Assembly (NCBI GenBank): GCA_905204935.1
Contig: CAJLBJ010000004.1
Span: 29,428 to 93,427, forward strand
DNA from: an uncultured Lactobacillus sp.
GTDB taxonomy: Bacteria; Bacillota; Bacilli; Lactobacillales; Lactobacillaceae
DNA length: 64,000 nucleotides
Reading direction: 5' to 3'
The notes beneath the pieces were generated by a model that was not told the DNA's origin, did no database searches, and was given only the letters and a program-made list of their open reading frames with translations. The position numbers were made by a program, and so were the translations under genes. Numbering within the stretch: the first letter of the stretch is position 1; every line of letters begins with the position of its first letter. This document shows, in pieces, positions 58,279 through 63,923 of the stretch.

Positions 58279-58667
58279 TGAAACTAGCAAAGATGCATCA
58301 TTTGGCGATTATTTGTCGAGATGAGCAAAAAGCTAAAGATTTTTATATCAATAAGCTGGGATTTGAGTTATTAGATGAACATCATCGCCCAGAAAAGAAA
58401 GATGTTTTAATTAATATTAAAAAAGGTGAAATGGTACTTGAGTTGTTTATTAAGCCCAATGCACCTAAGCGAGTAAGTGGTTTACCACTTGGAGAAGCAT
58501 GTGGTTTGCGCCATTTGGCTTTTAAGGTTGCTGATGTTGAAAAAACGGTAGACCAGTTAGAAGAATTAGGAATAAAATGTGAACCGATTCGTCAGGATGA
58601 TTTTGATGGTAAGAAGATGACATTTTTTAGAGATCCTGATGGATTACCGTTAGAAATTCATGAATAA
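58278..58667 (+). CDS. VOC-superfamily protein, glyoxalase I-like
   Basis: A small cytoplasmic metalloprotein of 129 residues with MHHLAIICRDEQKAKDFYIN, KLGFELLD, GLRHLAFKVADVEKTV and FFRDPDGLPLEIHE. Ligands His9, Glu55 (LELFIK), His96 or 97 in the second half and the final Glu are in the usual glyoxalase-fold positions. It belongs to the YaeR/GloA2-like group whose substrates are often unknown. It shares the transcript with merR (start overlaps the stop by one base). Confidence 0.88.
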   Translation: MKLAKMHHLAIICRDEQKAKDFYINKLGFELLDEHHRPEKKDVLINIKKGEMVLELFIKPNAPKRVSGLPLGEACGLRHLAFKVADVEKTVDQLEELGIKCEPIRQDDFDGKKMTFFRDPDGLPLEIHE

Positions 58668-58727: not shown

Positions 58728-58757
58728 TTTACCTATGTATATTTTAAGTGCTATAAT
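58728..58757 (+). promoter_or_regulatory. Promoter of the surface protein-sortase genes
   Basis: TTTACC (58728-58733) and TATAAT (58752-58757) with an 18-bp spacer. GGAGGTG precedes the surface-protein ATG at 58827. Confidence 0.6.
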
Positions 58758-58826: not shown

Positions 58827-59399
58827 ATGAAGAAAGTTTTAGGTTTCATCGTTGCTTTAGTTGCAGCTTTTGTTTTAGTATTGCCTTCTGTTAAGGCTGA
58901 TGGTGCTATCACATCTGAAGAACAACAAATCTTGGAAGCTTTGAAGCAACCAGTTAAGGTTGATGGTCAAACATTCACTTTACCACAATCATACTTAACA
59001 CAAGCTGAAAACGAATTAAAGCAAAACAACTATTCTGCAGCACAAGTTGCTGATGTTTTAGCTAAGATTAATGCAGTTGTTAAAGAAGTTGAATCAGCAG
59101 ATATTAAATTACCTGCAGGCGCAACATTTGATGACTTAGTAAAAGCTTTACCAGCATCTGTTAAAGCTTCTATCAAAGCTAATGTTGAAGCAGCAGCCAA
59201 GACACTTGGTTTGAAAGTTGTTATTACTTCAGCAGGTATTACTCTTGTTTCCGGTAACAACACAGCTGGTAACATCAGCACAGGTAGCCCTGTAAAACAA
59301 ACAGGTGCTAACTACGTAGCAAGCGTTGTTGCAGCAGCTAGCCTATTAGTCGTAGCAGCAGGTGCTTTTGTAGTAGGTAAAAAGGCAAAACTTGCATAA
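58827..59399 (+). CDS. Secreted alanine-rich surface protein with a non-canonical sorting signal
   Basis: The 190-residue protein starts with a signal peptide (KKVLGFIVALVAAFVLVLPS, cleavage likely after VKA at 24). The mature part is helical and rich in Ala, Lys and Val, with an Asn/Gly/Ser linker (SGNNTAGNISTGSP). The C-terminus has the layout of a wall-sorting signal: VKQTG (156-160), a hydrophobic span (about 163-183) and a basic tail KKAKLA. LPXTG is thus replaced by VKQTG. Codons are strongly optimised (mostly GCT, GTT, AAG), so it may be abundant. The sortase gene directly downstream overlaps its end, so the two likely form a dedicated pair. I do not recognise a named family. Confidence 0.75.
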   Translation: MKKVLGFIVALVAAFVLVLPSVKADGAITSEEQQILEALKQPVKVDGQTFTLPQSYLTQAENELKQNNYSAAQVADVLAKINAVVKEVESADIKLPAGATFDDLVKALPASVKASIKANVEAAAKTLGLKVVITSAGITLVSGNNTAGNISTGSPVKQTGANYVASVVAAASLLVVAAGAFVVGKKAKLA

Positions 59400-60063
59400 G
59401 CGACATAAAATGTTAGGTAGAGTAGGGTCAATTTTAATTGGCCCTATTCTATTTTTAACATTAGGTTATTCATTGATATACGTTATTGGCCGACCTGTCA
59501 TTCAATTTACGACATCTTCGTTGAATTTATTTTTATTATCAGATATTCCCAATTTTAAACAAACAACAAATGAGGATTTGCAATTAAGTGCAAATGATAG
59601 TAAAGAAATTGCCTCGAGTAAATTAAAGTATCCTAAACCAGGAGAAAAATATGGCAAGATCATTGTAACGAAGATTAAAATGGATGAGCCATTGTATTTT
59701 GGTGATACCAGTGAGATTTTAAGAAAAGGTGCCGGACAATATACCGGCTCCGTGTACCCAGGTGAAATGGGAACAACAATGATTGGTGGTCACAACATCA
59801 GTAGCTTTGGTAAATTAATCGGGGTTGAAGATGGTGACATCATTCAAATCAAAACAACATATGGACGTTATAGATACAAGGTGAGTGAGACTAAGGTCTA
59901 TCAATATAATGATGCAACGATTATGGAACGTTTGGATCAACGTGATCACCGCAAACTTATTTTATATACTTGTTACCCTATCGATGCGTTAGGGATGACA
60001 ACGAAGCGATTATTCATTACGGCCGATTATGTATCGGGTCCGATTATTAATCCAAATAAGTAA
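59392..60063 (+). CDS. Sortase (class D-like)
   Basis: A membrane-anchored transpeptidase of about 223 residues. One N-terminal span (SILIGPILFLTLGYSLIYVI) is followed by the sortase barrel with TMIGGHNISSFGKL (His134), ILYTCYPIDALGMTTKRLFI (Cys194 and Arg206, the catalytic residues). The simple build, with no C-terminal membrane span or lid, suits class D or E better than pilin-type class C. The likely start is TTG at 59392, overlapping the surface-protein gene by eight bases, with AAAAAGG upstream; the ATG at 59410 is possible but has no ribosome binding site. It probably anchors the preceding protein. It is not obviously the housekeeping SrtA for LPQTG proteins. Confidence 0.9.
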   Translation: MHKRHKMLGRVGSILIGPILFLTLGYSLIYVIGRPVIQFTTSSLNLFLLSDIPNFKQTTNEDLQLSANDSKEIASSKLKYPKPGEKYGKIIVTKIKMDEPLYFGDTSEILRKGAGQYTGSVYPGEMGTTMIGGHNISSFGKLIGVEDGDIIQIKTTYGRYRYKVSETKVYQYNDATIMERLDQRDHRKLILYTCYPIDALGMTTKRLFITADYVSGPIINPNK

Positions 60064-60077
60064 GGTAGGAGGTCATT

Positions 60078-60926
60078 ATGAAAAACGGAATTAATCTAAA
60101 CAAGGTTGCCGGTTGGGTATTGGCTTTTATCGGAAGTTTAGTGTTAGTAATGACCGTGAGCCTAGCCATTATTAAGTTCACTTTGTTTAATGAACATTAT
60201 ATGTTACATGTTGCCAATAAGGTTGAATACAGCCAAAATATGGCAAAAGAAATTAACGATACGATTACTGACTTAGGACGTGGAAGTTCTGTGCCACCAA
60301 AAGTTTTGCAACATACTGTATCTAAAGATTTGGTACAGCAAGATTTTGAAAATTATGTGACTGCTATTTATAGCGGACAGACTTTTACTGCAGCTAACCA
60401 AAATGTGGTAGCAAATAAAGTTGTCGAATCTGTTAAAAATTATGCTAATGAAATTGGTCAAACACTAGATGAAGATACTGTGACTAATATTGACACTTTA
60501 GGAAAAGAAGCTGGCAAGCGTTATACAAGTTTGATTGCTATTCCTTATTTATCTGTTTATGCTCAAAAAGTAATGGCTTATAATGGTCATATTTGGATTC
60601 TTTTAATTATTACAGCCGGAATCTTTATCTTATTATTGCTAGGTGGAATGAGTTTAGCAAGCCGATTAAAGCACCGTAAGTTACGTTATTTAGCAACTAT
60701 TTTTAATGGTGCAGGCTTAATGCTATTGGTTTTTCCAGGCTATTTATACTTTAGTAAACTCTTTTATCGTCTAGGGATTAGCTCTAAAACGTTATATGAT
60801 TTTTTAACAACATACGTCAATGGTTTCATTGCAATGTTTTTATGGGCTGGTCTTATCAGTTTGATTATAGGGGCTGGATTATTCATTTGGAGCGAACAAA
60901 AGCGTAAAAAATTAATCCATCACTAA
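60078..60926 (+). CDS. Membrane protein with a large extracellular domain, unknown function
   Basis: The 282 residues have an N-terminal span (about 12-34), an external domain (about 35-165, helical, rich in Asn, Val and Lys, with no cysteines) and three further spans (about 170-193, 210-232 and 250-273), ending with a basic tail. The gene follows the sortase after 14 bases with GGAGG as ribosome binding site, so the three form an operon. I see no known catalytic motif. It might help present or stabilise the sortase substrate or act as its receptor. It is closed by the large palindromic terminator. Confidence 0.75.
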   Translation: MKNGINLNKVAGWVLAFIGSLVLVMTVSLAIIKFTLFNEHYMLHVANKVEYSQNMAKEINDTITDLGRGSSVPPKVLQHTVSKDLVQQDFENYVTAIYSGQTFTAANQNVVANKVVESVKNYANEIGQTLDEDTVTNIDTLGKEAGKRYTSLIAIPYLSVYAQKVMAYNGHIWILLIITAGIFILLLLGGMSLASRLKHRKLRYLATIFNGAGLMLLVFPGYLYFSKLFYRLGISSKTLYDFLTTYVNGFIAMFLWAGLISLIIGAGLFIWSEQKRKKLIHH

Positions 60927-60928
60927 AA

Positions 60929-60985
60929 TTAGAATAATTAAAATGCTTCTGTGAAATTTTCACAGAAGCATTTTAATTATTCTAA
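60929..60985. terminator. 57-bp perfect inverted repeat, bidirectional terminator
   Basis: Arms of 28 bases (60929-60956 and 60958-60985) pair without mismatch around one central T. The left arm begins TTAGAATAATTAAAATGC and the right arm ends GCATTTTAATTATTCTAA. It sits between the convergent membrane-protein and dipeptidase genes. Confidence 0.88.
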
Positions 60986-60987
60986 AG

Positions 60988-61548
60988 TTATTTATAATCG
61001 TTAGGATCAGCTGCTAATGGTTGATATTCATCCATCTGACTATCACGATAATCCCACCACTCGTTTTCATAGCCGACAAACCCAGCTCGTGTCATCGCTT
61101 GATCTAAGATTTGATAATACTTATCTTGTGTAGGCGTGCGCTTAGCATCACGATGGGCTTGAGAACTAAAGTCATCAAATGCAGTTGGCATTTCACATTC
61201 GGTTCCATCAGCGAAAGTCAATGTGACATCAAAGGTAACGCCTTTTTGATGGCTGAAGTTAGGGTTGGGTTTAGCAACAAATTCAGGATCAGGATAAACT
61301 TCAAACAGTCGTTCTTGTGCTTTAACGGGCCGATATGCATCCCAAATTTTGAGACGATAGCCTTGCTTTTTAACAATGTCACTAGCAACAGCAAGTTTTT
61401 GTGCAGTTCCTGTTCTTGCAATCGCCGTAGTAAAATCATAGATAACATGGTTGGTAAAGTTATTAGTTGTGGCGTAACGTAAATCAACGATGATATCTGG
61501 ATCTAACTTTTGAATATTGCTAAAACCAGTTAATTTTGGATCGAGCAT
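60988..61548 (-). CDS. VanX/Aad-like D-alanyl-D-alanine dipeptidase
   Basis: Zinc dipeptidase of the M15D family, 186 residues. DLRYATTNNFTNHVIY opens the chain. IWDAYRPVKAQ carries the transition-state Arg73. SHQKGVTFDVTL holds zinc ligands His100 and Asp107. NEWWDYRD holds the catalytic Glu163, with Asp166 where VanX has the third zinc ligand His. Relatives occur as Aad in lactobacilli, which are intrinsically vancomycin-resistant, and are thought to clear D-Ala-D-Ala or scavenge it from wall turnover. A cre-like pair lies upstream. The His-to-Asp change might lower activity or be normal for this branch. Confidence 0.88.
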   Translation of the reverse strand: MLDPKLTGFSNIQKLDPDIIVDLRYATTNNFTNHVIYDFTTAIARTGTAQKLAVASDIVKKQGYRLKIWDAYRPVKAQERLFEVYPDPEFVAKPNPNFSHQKGVTFDVTLTFADGTECEMPTAFDDFSSQAHRDAKRTPTQDKYYQILDQAMTRAGFVGYENEWWDYRDSQMDEYQPLAADPNDYK

Positions 61549-61611: not shown

Positions 61612-61728
61612 GGTTTATATTTGATAGTTTTGATAAAATTTGAGAAATATTATTTGCAATATTACTTAACTTTTTATATTATATGACGTATAATATTATT
61701 GAAGATAATAAAAATGGGAGTGAGTATC

Positions 61729-62310
61729 ATGGATAAAGCAAGGTATCTAGTCGAGCTCGAACAATTATTAGGTGATTTGAACGAAGAAGAACGCCAAGAC
61801 GCCTTGGAATTTTATGATGAATTTATCGCAGATGCAAATTTAAAAACTAGAGCAGAGATTGAAGAAAAGCTAGGCAGTCCTGACCAATTGAGTCAAAAGA
61901 TCATTTTTGATTATTTAGGTAGAATGTCAAAAGAAGAGGACGCTACGCAAGAAAAACGGCACTTTAGTTTTGGGCGTTTGTGTTTGTGGATAATTGCAAT
62001 TTTAATTCTAGGACCACTTGTTTTTGGGATAATTTGTGCAATCTTAGGTTGCTTATTGGGCTTAGGAATTACCGTTGTTGCAGTGGGTGGTTCAGCCGTT
62101 TTAATCTGTGCATTAGCTTTTTATACCGGGGTATGGCTTTTGTGGTCTGCACCGTTTATCGGGTGTTTTTATGTCGGTTTGTCGTTTGTGGCTGTAGGTG
62201 CGATTTTAGTACTTATTCCGGTAGCTATTTGGTTTGTGAGATTAGTGGCTAAATGGTGTAAAAATGTTTGGAATCTATTAGTTACTAGAGTTAAACAAAT
62301 GCGCGCATAA
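61729..62310 (+). CDS. DUF1700 (HAAS-domain) membrane protein
   Basis: A protein of 193 residues starting at the ATG behind GGGAGTGAG. The N-terminal soluble helical domain (LVELEQLLGDLNEEERQDAL, EEKLGSPDQLSQKIIFDYLG) is the HAAS module, followed by three to four membrane spans. Such proteins usually accompany PadR regulators and DUF4097 proteins and act as membrane partners in envelope-stress control. Here the DUF4097-like, PadR and PspC genes follow directly. The protein may pass a membrane signal to PadR; the mechanism is not established. Confidence 0.85.
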   Translation: MDKARYLVELEQLLGDLNEEERQDALEFYDEFIADANLKTRAEIEEKLGSPDQLSQKIIFDYLGRMSKEEDATQEKRHFSFGRLCLWIIAILILGPLVFGIICAILGCLLGLGITVVAVGGSAVLICALAFYTGVWLLWSAPFIGCFYVGLSFVAVGAILVLIPVAIWFVRLVAKWCKNVWNLLVTRVKQMRA

Positions 62311-62323
62311 GGAGGAAAAGACG

Positions 62324-63304
62324 ATGAAAAAAACATTTAAATTTGGTTTAGGTGTCTTGATCTTAGGCGTAATTTTGGCCTTGATAGGTGTTTTGTCAGG
62401 TCAAAATTTAGGCGTGGTCTTTAAAGATATGCGTCCGGTTTTATATAGTGATTACAAAAAGAAAAGCTATCACGCATATCGCCAAAACTTAGATGCTACG
62501 GCTATCAAAAGTATGACGCTTGATTTAAAAAATACGGATCTAACGATTAAACGTGGGGCCAAGTTAGCCTTGAGATATCATAGCTGGGGTTCAAAACCAG
62601 ATGTCAACATTATTAATGGTAATTTAAACATCAAGCAAAGTGGTGAAGATCGTTTTGTCGATAAGCTGTTGGTCTTTTCTTTTGGTGATTGGGAAAATCG
62701 CAACAAAGCAGCCAATAAACTAGAATTGACGATTCCTGAAAACTTTAGTTTAGATGACGTGCGCTTGGTACTTGATAGCGGATATTATAATACCAATGTG
62801 ATGTTAGACGGATTTAAGGCTAAAAATATCACGTTAATCGGTTCGAGTTATGCTTTAAAGATTGCTAACAGCAGTTTCGATCAGTTCAATCTTGATTTGA
62901 GTGGGACAAATATCACCGTAGCTAATTCTATTTTGTTGAGTGGGCGAATTACAGCCGATGCTAATTTGTTGGTTAACTCATCTACCTTAAAAGATGTCGC
63001 AGTTGTAGGCAATAATGATATCCAATACAGCAATGTTTCCTTGGATTCAGGGAGCTTGATAAGCGATAGTAGTAATATCAAAATGAGTAATTCAAGTATC
63101 GCTAATGGATATCAAATAACTAATACAACCGGAACAACGACGGTTTTAAACACGACAGTCGATGGCTACTGGTTGATAGGGGGAGCTAAGAGTGCAAGTT
63201 TGAATCTTTTTGGCAAAACAGGCCAAGGAGAATTGACGCAAAATCAAACGACCCCAAATTGTTTGAAGATTACTACGCAAGAAGGTAGGATTAATGTTAA
63301 GTAA
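62324..63304 (+). CDS. DUF4097-type membrane-anchored beta-helical protein
   Basis: The 326 residues start with a hydrophobic anchor (FGLGVLILGVILALIGVLSG). The rest is a repetitive beta domain rich in Ser, Asn and Leu (SMTLDLKNTDLTIKRG, IANSILLSGRITADANLL, SNIKMSNSSIANGYQ), as in the DUF4097/DUF4098 adhesin-like family. It lies 13 bases after the HAAS gene, ribosome binding site GGAGG, and is likely displayed outside the cell membrane. Role is presumably sensing or shielding in envelope stress. Confidence 0.78.
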   Translation: MKKTFKFGLGVLILGVILALIGVLSGQNLGVVFKDMRPVLYSDYKKKSYHAYRQNLDATAIKSMTLDLKNTDLTIKRGAKLALRYHSWGSKPDVNIINGNLNIKQSGEDRFVDKLLVFSFGDWENRNKAANKLELTIPENFSLDDVRLVLDSGYYNTNVMLDGFKAKNITLIGSSYALKIANSSFDQFNLDLSGTNITVANSILLSGRITADANLLVNSSTLKDVAVVGNNDIQYSNVSLDSGSLISDSSNIKMSNSSIANGYQITNTTGTTTVLNTTVDGYWLIGGAKSASLNLFGKTGQGELTQNQTTPNCLKITTQEGRINVK

Positions 63305-63330
63305 ACCAAGATGAAAGGAAGAAATTTGCA

Positions 63331-63648
63331 ATGAAAATTCAAGTTACAGCCGATCTCTTGGATGGTTTGGTGTTGGCATTATTAAGTCGCAAAGATTATT
63401 ACGGTTATGCGTTGACGCAAGATATGCAACAGGCGATCACGATTTCGGAATCGACGATGTATCCGGTGTTGCGACGCTTAAATAAAAATGGTTATCTGAC
63501 GATTTACGATCAACCATACCAAGGCAGAAATCGGCGGTATTATCAAATTACACCAAGTGGGAAAGAACATTTACAAAAGATTCATAAGATGTGGGAGGAC
63601 TATAAAAAAAACATGGATAATGTTTTTGATGGTCAAGATACACAATAG
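63331..63648 (+). CDS. PadR-family transcriptional regulator
   Basis: A small winged-helix protein of 105 residues: LLDGLVLALLSRKDYYGYAL, then ISESTMYPVLRRLNKNGYL and RNRRYYQITPSGKEHLQKI. These are the PadR signature pieces; the long C-terminal helix is short, as in the PadR-s1 group. It is the third gene of the envelope operon. PadR repressors often release their target genes when the cell wall is damaged. Ribosome binding site AAAGGAAG. Confidence 0.92.
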   Translation: MKIQVTADLLDGLVLALLSRKDYYGYALTQDMQQAITISESTMYPVLRRLNKNGYLTIYDQPYQGRNRRYYQITPSGKEHLQKIHKMWEDYKKNMDNVFDGQDTQ

Positions 63649-63662
63649 AGGAGAAAAGCAAA

Positions 63663-63923
63663 ATGAAAAAAAGGTTAACAAAGTCAAAAGATAAAGTTTT
63701 AAGTGGTGTTTTTGGTGGGATTGCAGAATATTTTGGTTGGGATAAAGCGTTGGTGAGAATAATTGGTGCTTTTATAATAATTGTGCCCGGAACAATTATT
63801 ACAGGAGTGGTACTTTATTTTATCGCCGCTTTAGTCATGCCAGATGCTCCAAATGCTAATAACTATCATCGAGCTAATAATGATGATGTTATCGAGGGGC
63901 ATTTTTATGAAAAAGATGAATAA
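63663..63923 (+). CDS. PspC-domain envelope-stress protein
   Basis: An 86-residue protein with the PspC pattern: LTKSKDKVLSGVFGGIAEYF near the N-terminus, then GWDKALVRIIGAFIIIVPGT, a membrane hairpin (ITGVVLYFIAALVMPDAP) and an acidic tail (DDVIEGHFYEKDE). PspC-domain proteins sit in the membrane and help respond to membrane damage. It ends the four-gene set; 14 bases separate it from padR with GGAG as ribosome binding site. Confidence 0.92.
   Translation: MKKRLTKSKDKVLSGVFGGIAEYFGWDKALVRIIGAFIIIVPGTIITGVVLYFIAALVMPDAPNANNYHRANNDDVIEGHFYEKDE

Follow-up and report, generated by a model that had tools for sequence, protein, structure and literature searches.

The comparisons presented here point to a conserved three-gene unit in which a sortase probably acts (we would give this about three chances in four) on a single partner encoded upstream of it, via a motif of the form [I/V]-K-x-T-G and not via LPXTG. 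Across the loci compared, gene order, co-occurrence of the genes, conservation of the motif, agreement among the protein distances and decay of the catalytic residues where the substrate is lacking all appear to support this reading. In the window (by which we mean the whole stretch of DNA analysed, 64,000 nucleotides) the three genes foreseen by the original prediction are indeed read as open reading frames on one strand:

58728..58757, + strand: promoter-like site TTTACC-18-TATAAT with TG before the second hexamer; weak; upstream of the trio
58827..59399, + strand: predicted substrate gene; 190 aa, Ala-rich, with an export-signal-like start
59292..59306, + strand: predicted sorting motif VKQTG (substrate residues 156-160)
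59392..60063, + strand: sortase gene, class D-like; 223 aa, with His134, Cys194 and Arg206
60078..60926, + strand: gene for a predicted four-span membrane protein; 282 aa, no family assigned
60934..60980, scored on the - strand: terminator-like hairpin of 20 pairs, directly after the third gene

The three genes and their products

The promoter-like site is the best of 12 found between positions 58500 and 61200, where shuffled sequence gave a mean of 11.2; terminator-like sites number 8, three of them the hairpin at 60934..60980, against 1.7 in shuffles. The overlap that had been proposed for the first two genes holds only if the sortase is read from the TTG at 59392, and is lost with the in-frame ATG at 59410, which leaves a gap of 10 bases after the substrate gene; the three closest database relatives of the sortase (P0001-P0003, 217 aa) begin at the position matching this ATG. 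Convergent with the trio lies a reading frame (60988-61548, - strand) that presumably resembles a D-Ala-D-Ala dipeptidase of the DdpX/VanX kind, and downstream (61699-63923) stands what we take to resemble a cell-envelope stress set, comprising membrane proteins, a PadR-like regulator and a PspC-like protein. Elsewhere in the window, the putative GH84-type protein at 12910-9869 (- strand) does carry the LPQTG tail ascribed to it.

The 190-residue substrate frame contains the predicted tail, namely VKQTG followed by about 20 hydrophobic residues and the basic stretch GKKAKLA (...GSPVKQTGANYVASVVAAASLLVVAAGAFVVGKKAKLA), while its N-terminus, MKKVLGFIVALVAAFVLVLPSVKA, looks by eye like a signal peptide (MKK, a hydrophobic core, VKA). 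The layout of an anchored protein (motif, hydrophobic span, basic tail) recurs in the linked substrates of other genomes, with a divergent motif in 10 of 60. Pfam and NCBIfam scans of the substrate gave scattered weak matches only. Its predicted model consists of a small helical domain and a beta hairpin, at low confidence (pLDDT 54.6), and Foldseek returned no match to it at E up to 0.001; because of both, no fold is claimed. Among the 14 relatives in the protein database, VKQTG is present in 12 of the 13 that were aligned, P0130 stopping before the motif; P0125 was excluded since its frame starts as the upstream glyoxalase-like protein.

The window sortase belongs to the sortase superfamily by its Pfam score (PF04203, 66.8 bits against a cut-off of 26.6) and its residues H134, C194 and R206. 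Its description as class D-like stands in so far as class D models are the best-scoring ones in NCBIfam, and falls short in that neither cut-off is reached (NF058671, 97.5 against 140; NF033746, 94.9 against 165). In place of an LPXTA-type class D motif we find VKQTG in the window and [IVL]KxT[GDN] in 50 of the 60 linked substrates that such enzymes presumably process. The top sequence match in the PDB is 2ln7, and of 225 database relatives, the named ones among the best 120 are enterococcal and are labelled by NCBI as class D sortases. Assignment to class C, the pilus class, was discarded: hydrophobic segments are confined to residues 7-37, leaving no C-terminal span, and the class C model scores 53.8 against a cut-off of 160. 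In the tree, a single clade holds the trio sortases and excludes 11 ordinary sortases (9 in the second run); three lone members are nested within it (support 0.69 and 0.85). A sortase-only search of plasmids gave 27 records, mostly from Bacillus and Priestia and all below 60% identity; no sortase relative was found in viral contigs, and a substrate-only search of phages found none.

For the third protein, hydropathy and the AlphaFold model together predict TM1, a helical outer domain at about residues 36-165 and then TM2-TM4, in keeping with the external domain of about 130 residues that had been proposed. It has 48 database relatives. Pfam and NCBIfam scans returned scattered weak matches and no family (TIGR04527, at 18.9 bits against a cut-off of 125, was set aside), and its profile found nothing meaningful among PDB sequences. 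The predicted model resembles Lit, the lipoprotein intramolecular transacylase, with a Z score of a size that chance alone can give between helical bundles. With E allowed up to 1, Pfam Lit (PF07314) still did not match the protein of the window, and a profile-profile comparison with five Lit proteins reached 26% probability over 56 columns; against these five, the predicted TM1-TM2 domain of the trio protein looks larger. The catalytic dyad of Lit in B. cereus is His85/His153 (PMC8275575), a pair with no counterpart in the trio membrane proteins; among 66 of these, residue 199, in the predicted inner loop, is the sole column with at least 8 His (27 of 66), and no conserved nucleophile was identified. 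One protein, L127:1465-2232 (genome G409), exceeds the Lit cut-off with 90.9 bits for PF07314 and matches the trio membrane protein through its N-terminus at 21 bits, so that it may be a possible bridge between the two families, too weak for a claim of homology.

Distribution and order of the genes

In the Clostridiales bacterium locus (L001) a sortase and the membrane protein adjoin, and in genome G001 the same two were found with no credible substrate, while G379, from a sample of the phylum of the Clostridiales bacterium, holds a full trio with the tail IKKTG. A sortase profile (A3) made from 25 sortases, those of G001 and G379 included, matched 58 of 300 genomes of the G379 family at 60 places, with the membrane protein at 57 and the substrate as well at 56, and matched 8 of 246 genomes of the G001 order. 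Run against the same 300 genomes, the membrane-protein profile matched 48, of which 45 were shared with the sortase (Fisher p 6e-38, uncorrected for relatedness). Among 398 genomes sampled across the phylum, A3 matched at about 1e-78 only G001 and G379, both of them rows of A3 itself, and gave 7 further matches at 1e-29 to 2e-26, none with the neighbours. Given 2 strong matches in 398 genomes of the phylum against 58 matched genomes of 300 in the family, the trio is rare across the phylum and common in one family, this family having been picked because it contained a match.

The set of 72 distinct loci comprises the 60 of the G379 family, the 8 of the G001 order, 3 membrane-protein rows from genomes that the sortase search had not matched, and the window (duplicates L021 and L051 were dropped). 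A sortase matching the profile is present at 71, the membrane protein as well at 65 and all three genes at 60. Each of these 60 has its three genes on a single strand, the substrate first, the sortase next and the membrane protein last; taken from the longest reading frames, the first gap has a median of -1 base (range -185 to 188) and the second a median of 4 bases (range -85 to 127). Sortase and membrane protein occur with no linked substrate at L020, L052, L080, L081 and L085; both neighbours are absent at L056-L058 and at the near-relatives L077, L084 and L090; and at L079 the membrane protein has no sortase next to it. Because the profiles for substrate and membrane protein were built up in rounds from their own matches, E-values may be inflated; the lowest scores are 80 bits for a linked substrate and 131 bits for a membrane protein. 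As a control, 16 ordinary sortase loci (L004-L013, L016-L018 and L056-L058, the last three also among the 72; L014 and L015 were left out) showed no membrane protein within about 1.5 kb, and their two weak substrate matches (13.9 and 13.0 bits) fall in reading frames of 349 and 411 aa. Judged by these loci, the arrangement lies far beyond chance.

Pairwise distances among the three proteins agree, with Spearman coefficients of 0.77, 0.67 and 0.59 where the maxima of 500 shuffles were at most 0.28, an agreement for which shared descent alone could be sufficient. For the enterococcal relatives co-location is read indirectly, from equal largest-contig sizes of database proteins: five substrate-sortase pairs (16614, 8830, 2460, 387574 and 23904) suggest that the two genes share a contig, and several more suggest the same for sortase and membrane protein.

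The tag, the sortase and catalytic decay

The survey of trios and alignment of motifs that the original prediction called for thus gave all three genes at 60 of 72 loci, with a tag of the form [I/V/L]-K-x-T-[G/D/N] in 50 of the 60 linked substrates. In the full-length alignment of these 60, the motif Thr (T159) is present in all, the Gly (G160) in 52 and the Lys (K157) in 50; as motifs were listed with a pattern that demands Thr, the Thr count of that list is partly a matter of construction, a constraint from which the full-length alignment is free. Position 1 is occupied by Ile (36), Val (17), Leu (3), Phe (3) or Gly (1), and position 3 is variable. The ten tails with a residue other than Lys at position 2 read LPPTG, VNQTG, IIQTG, ITKTG, IAKTG, GTQTG, IEQTG and, three times, FAVTA. 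Since the 26 substrate rows from surveyed genomes share merely 19-34% identity with the window substrate over full length, the tag seems to be kept while the remainder drifts, matching the expectation for a sorting signal. Some substrates are longer (230-312 aa, longest reading frame; L024, L028, L029, L043, L044, L047, L053, L054 and L071), several of them with a Gly/Thr-rich linker before the tag, and therefore the distance at which they are displayed may vary. Outside the motif, lysine is nowhere more than 55% conserved in the mature substrate, for which reason a pilin-like polymer seems less likely.

The idea that the sortase is dedicated to this tag is supported by comparison within trio genomes. 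With x fixed as T, the DNA pattern [IMV]KTTG occurred at 34 places in six trio genomes; most of these are chance matches, because the reversed pattern occurred at 27. Of the 30 places examined (the four in G504 were left out), ten lie within 60 residues of the end of a reading frame, and the combination of a strong span (hydropathy 2.4 to 2.9) and an export-like start is seen there in the six trio substrates only, one per genome, which are thus the only convincing tails of this form; L093 (1.75), L108 (1.15), L117 (0.99) and L112 (0.41) were dismissed for want of that combination. In genome G863 no substrate was found within the first 9 kb of the sortase contig, and a substrate-like protein on a different contig (L131:1201-1932) ends in IKATG. 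We take this off-contig tail to indicate that conservation of the tag is probably more than a by-product of linkage, with the reservation that the 7.7 Mb assembly may be mixed. At least some hosts thus have the trio on top of ordinary sorting, given that 5 of 8 trio genomes carry anchors of the canonical LPXTG kind (PF00746) and that all 24 genomes checked contain 2-8 sortases; this number of enzymes also makes cross-processing by other sortases possible.

Within the enzyme, residue 174 of the beta6/beta7 loop is acidic at 47 of 50 loci whose motif has Lys and at 4 of 10 others (p 3e-4), or at 4 of 8 others when the three FAVTA relatives are counted once (p 0.005), the relatives not being independent. 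These three (L072, L073 and L074) are related trios whose sortases have Asn for Asp174 and one extra residue after the catalytic His-Asn. As the sequences are related and Asp also stands at the aligned place in 2ln7, whose sortase is of the LPXTG-site kind, a role of Asp174 in reading the motif Lys stays a lead.

Catalytic residues follow the substrate. Wherever a substrate is linked (60 loci of 60) His and Cys are intact, as against 2 of the 5 loci with sortase and membrane protein only (p 2e-4). In the other three the catalytic His is replaced by Tyr, and the sortase-like frames beside the membrane protein are degenerate:

L080:3708-4511: degenerate sortase-like frame, no linked substrate
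L081:2006-2809: degenerate sortase-like frame, no linked substrate
L085:2821-3492: degenerate sortase-like frame, no linked substrate

In L080 and L081 the Cys is likewise replaced, by Asp, and the Arg is missing. At L085 Thr occupies the aligned Cys place, and because a Cys lies one residue upstream and Arg is kept, the Cys appears to be displaced and not plainly lost. L080 and L081 pair as sisters in the tree (support 1.0), so the decay represents about two independent events. Their frames, of 267 aa, stay open beside the membrane protein, which suggests that degenerate sortases have a use beyond catalysis.

Proposed mechanism, alternatives and relation to known systems

We suggest that the substrate would leave the cytoplasm through the general secretion pathway and stay in the membrane by means of its C-terminal span, where the linked sortase may recognize [I/V]KxTG, a step that co-occurrence and motif conservation argue for. 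According to established sortase chemistry, the sortase Cys would cut between Thr and Gly and the substrate would pass to an amino group of a cell-wall precursor, as with other sortases. The four-span protein may be a partner in the membrane, bringing sortase and substrate together or shielding the reaction. A bolder version, which we consider improbable, would have a Lit-like scaffold and the sortase act as one complex, with Asp174 reading the Lys, an acceptor other than peptidoglycan, and the dead pair taking a second role once the substrate is lost.

The near-constant presence of the membrane protein (65 of 71 sortase loci, commoner than the substrate) together with its predicted likeness to Lit, which handles lipid-bearing proteins, raises the question of whether the sortase might release or polymerize the substrate, or link it to a membrane lipid or to the four-span protein itself as acceptor, and not to the wall. 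We regard this as rather unlikely, considering that no conserved nucleophile was identified in that protein, whose sole His-rich column, residue 199 (27 of 66), lies in the predicted inner loop, and that the Lit likeness lies within reach of chance. It could also be argued from the best NCBIfam matches, and from the naming of the enterococcal relatives, that this is an ordinary class D sortase with coincidental neighbours, another sortase handling the VKQTG protein. Such a coincidence seems very unlikely in the face of 60 of 72 loci with all three genes in order, the absence of the membrane protein at the 16 ordinary loci, the missed class D cut-offs and the separate clade of the trio sortases. 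Finally, the open sortase-like frames kept beside the membrane protein after loss of His at L080, L081 (two genomes) and L085 might be expected of a regulatory or stress-sensing module, in which the sortase domain would serve as a platform for binding, the anchored protein would act as a signal and catalysis would be secondary; since His and Cys are intact wherever a substrate is linked, and no regulator was seen within the trio unit, we consider this a most improbable account.

Sorting of one upstream-encoded partner through [I/V]KxTG would extend the sortase sorting code by a family of motifs with lysine, and would offer a testable pair of one enzyme and one substrate, available in enterococcus-related sequences and in dozens of genomes from the phylum of the Clostridiales bacterium. 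Because scans for LPXTG would miss such substrates, counts of surface proteins in these bacteria are probably too low. That the membrane partner is almost always present suggests a need, in some sortases, for a membrane protein of their own; loci where the sortase is degenerate may be regarded as a natural experiment, and an enzyme reading [I/V]KxTG could serve as an orthogonal ligation tool. That no system of this make-up has been described agrees with the open-licence literature (outside which lie subscription papers and most preprints), where searches found no paper with VKQTG, only an unrelated match for IKTTG, IKQTG, VKTTG or IKVTG with sortase, and, among texts on class D, Enterococcus, sorting signals and dedicated or inactive sortases (including PMC13257024), no such trio.

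Several known systems bear comparison with the trio. SafA is a sortase-associated membrane protein of Actinomyces. In the class C clusters of pili, a sortase likewise stands beside its own substrate genes and the motifs can depart from LPXTG; the trio differs in that its sortase has no C-terminal span, its substrate is single and small, and the mature domain carries no widely conserved acceptor lysine. The model of the membrane protein resembles Lit, and the protein departs from Lit in having no Pfam match, no equivalent of the His pair and a sortase as neighbour. In class E, SrtE1/E2 act with LAXTG chaplins, the enzyme being shifted to fit a residue other than Pro at position 2 (PMC5148588), a feature that the trio motif shares, although in these actinobacterial systems the residue is Ala and not Lys and the class E model gives the window sortase 43 bits against a cut-off of 160. 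Closest are the class D pairs, SrtC of B. anthracis with the LPNTA substrates BasH and BasI, and YhcS/YhcR of B. subtilis with LPDTS (PMC12445088): class models, the 2ln7 match, a single N-terminal span, the TCYP core and few substrates all point towards them, whereas in the trio motif position 2 is Lys where theirs is Pro and position 5 is mostly Gly, and the trio sortase scores under the class D cut-offs, has its catalytic His followed by Asn in 48 of 65 sequences (by Arg in 2ln7) and is accompanied by a fixed gene for a four-span partner.
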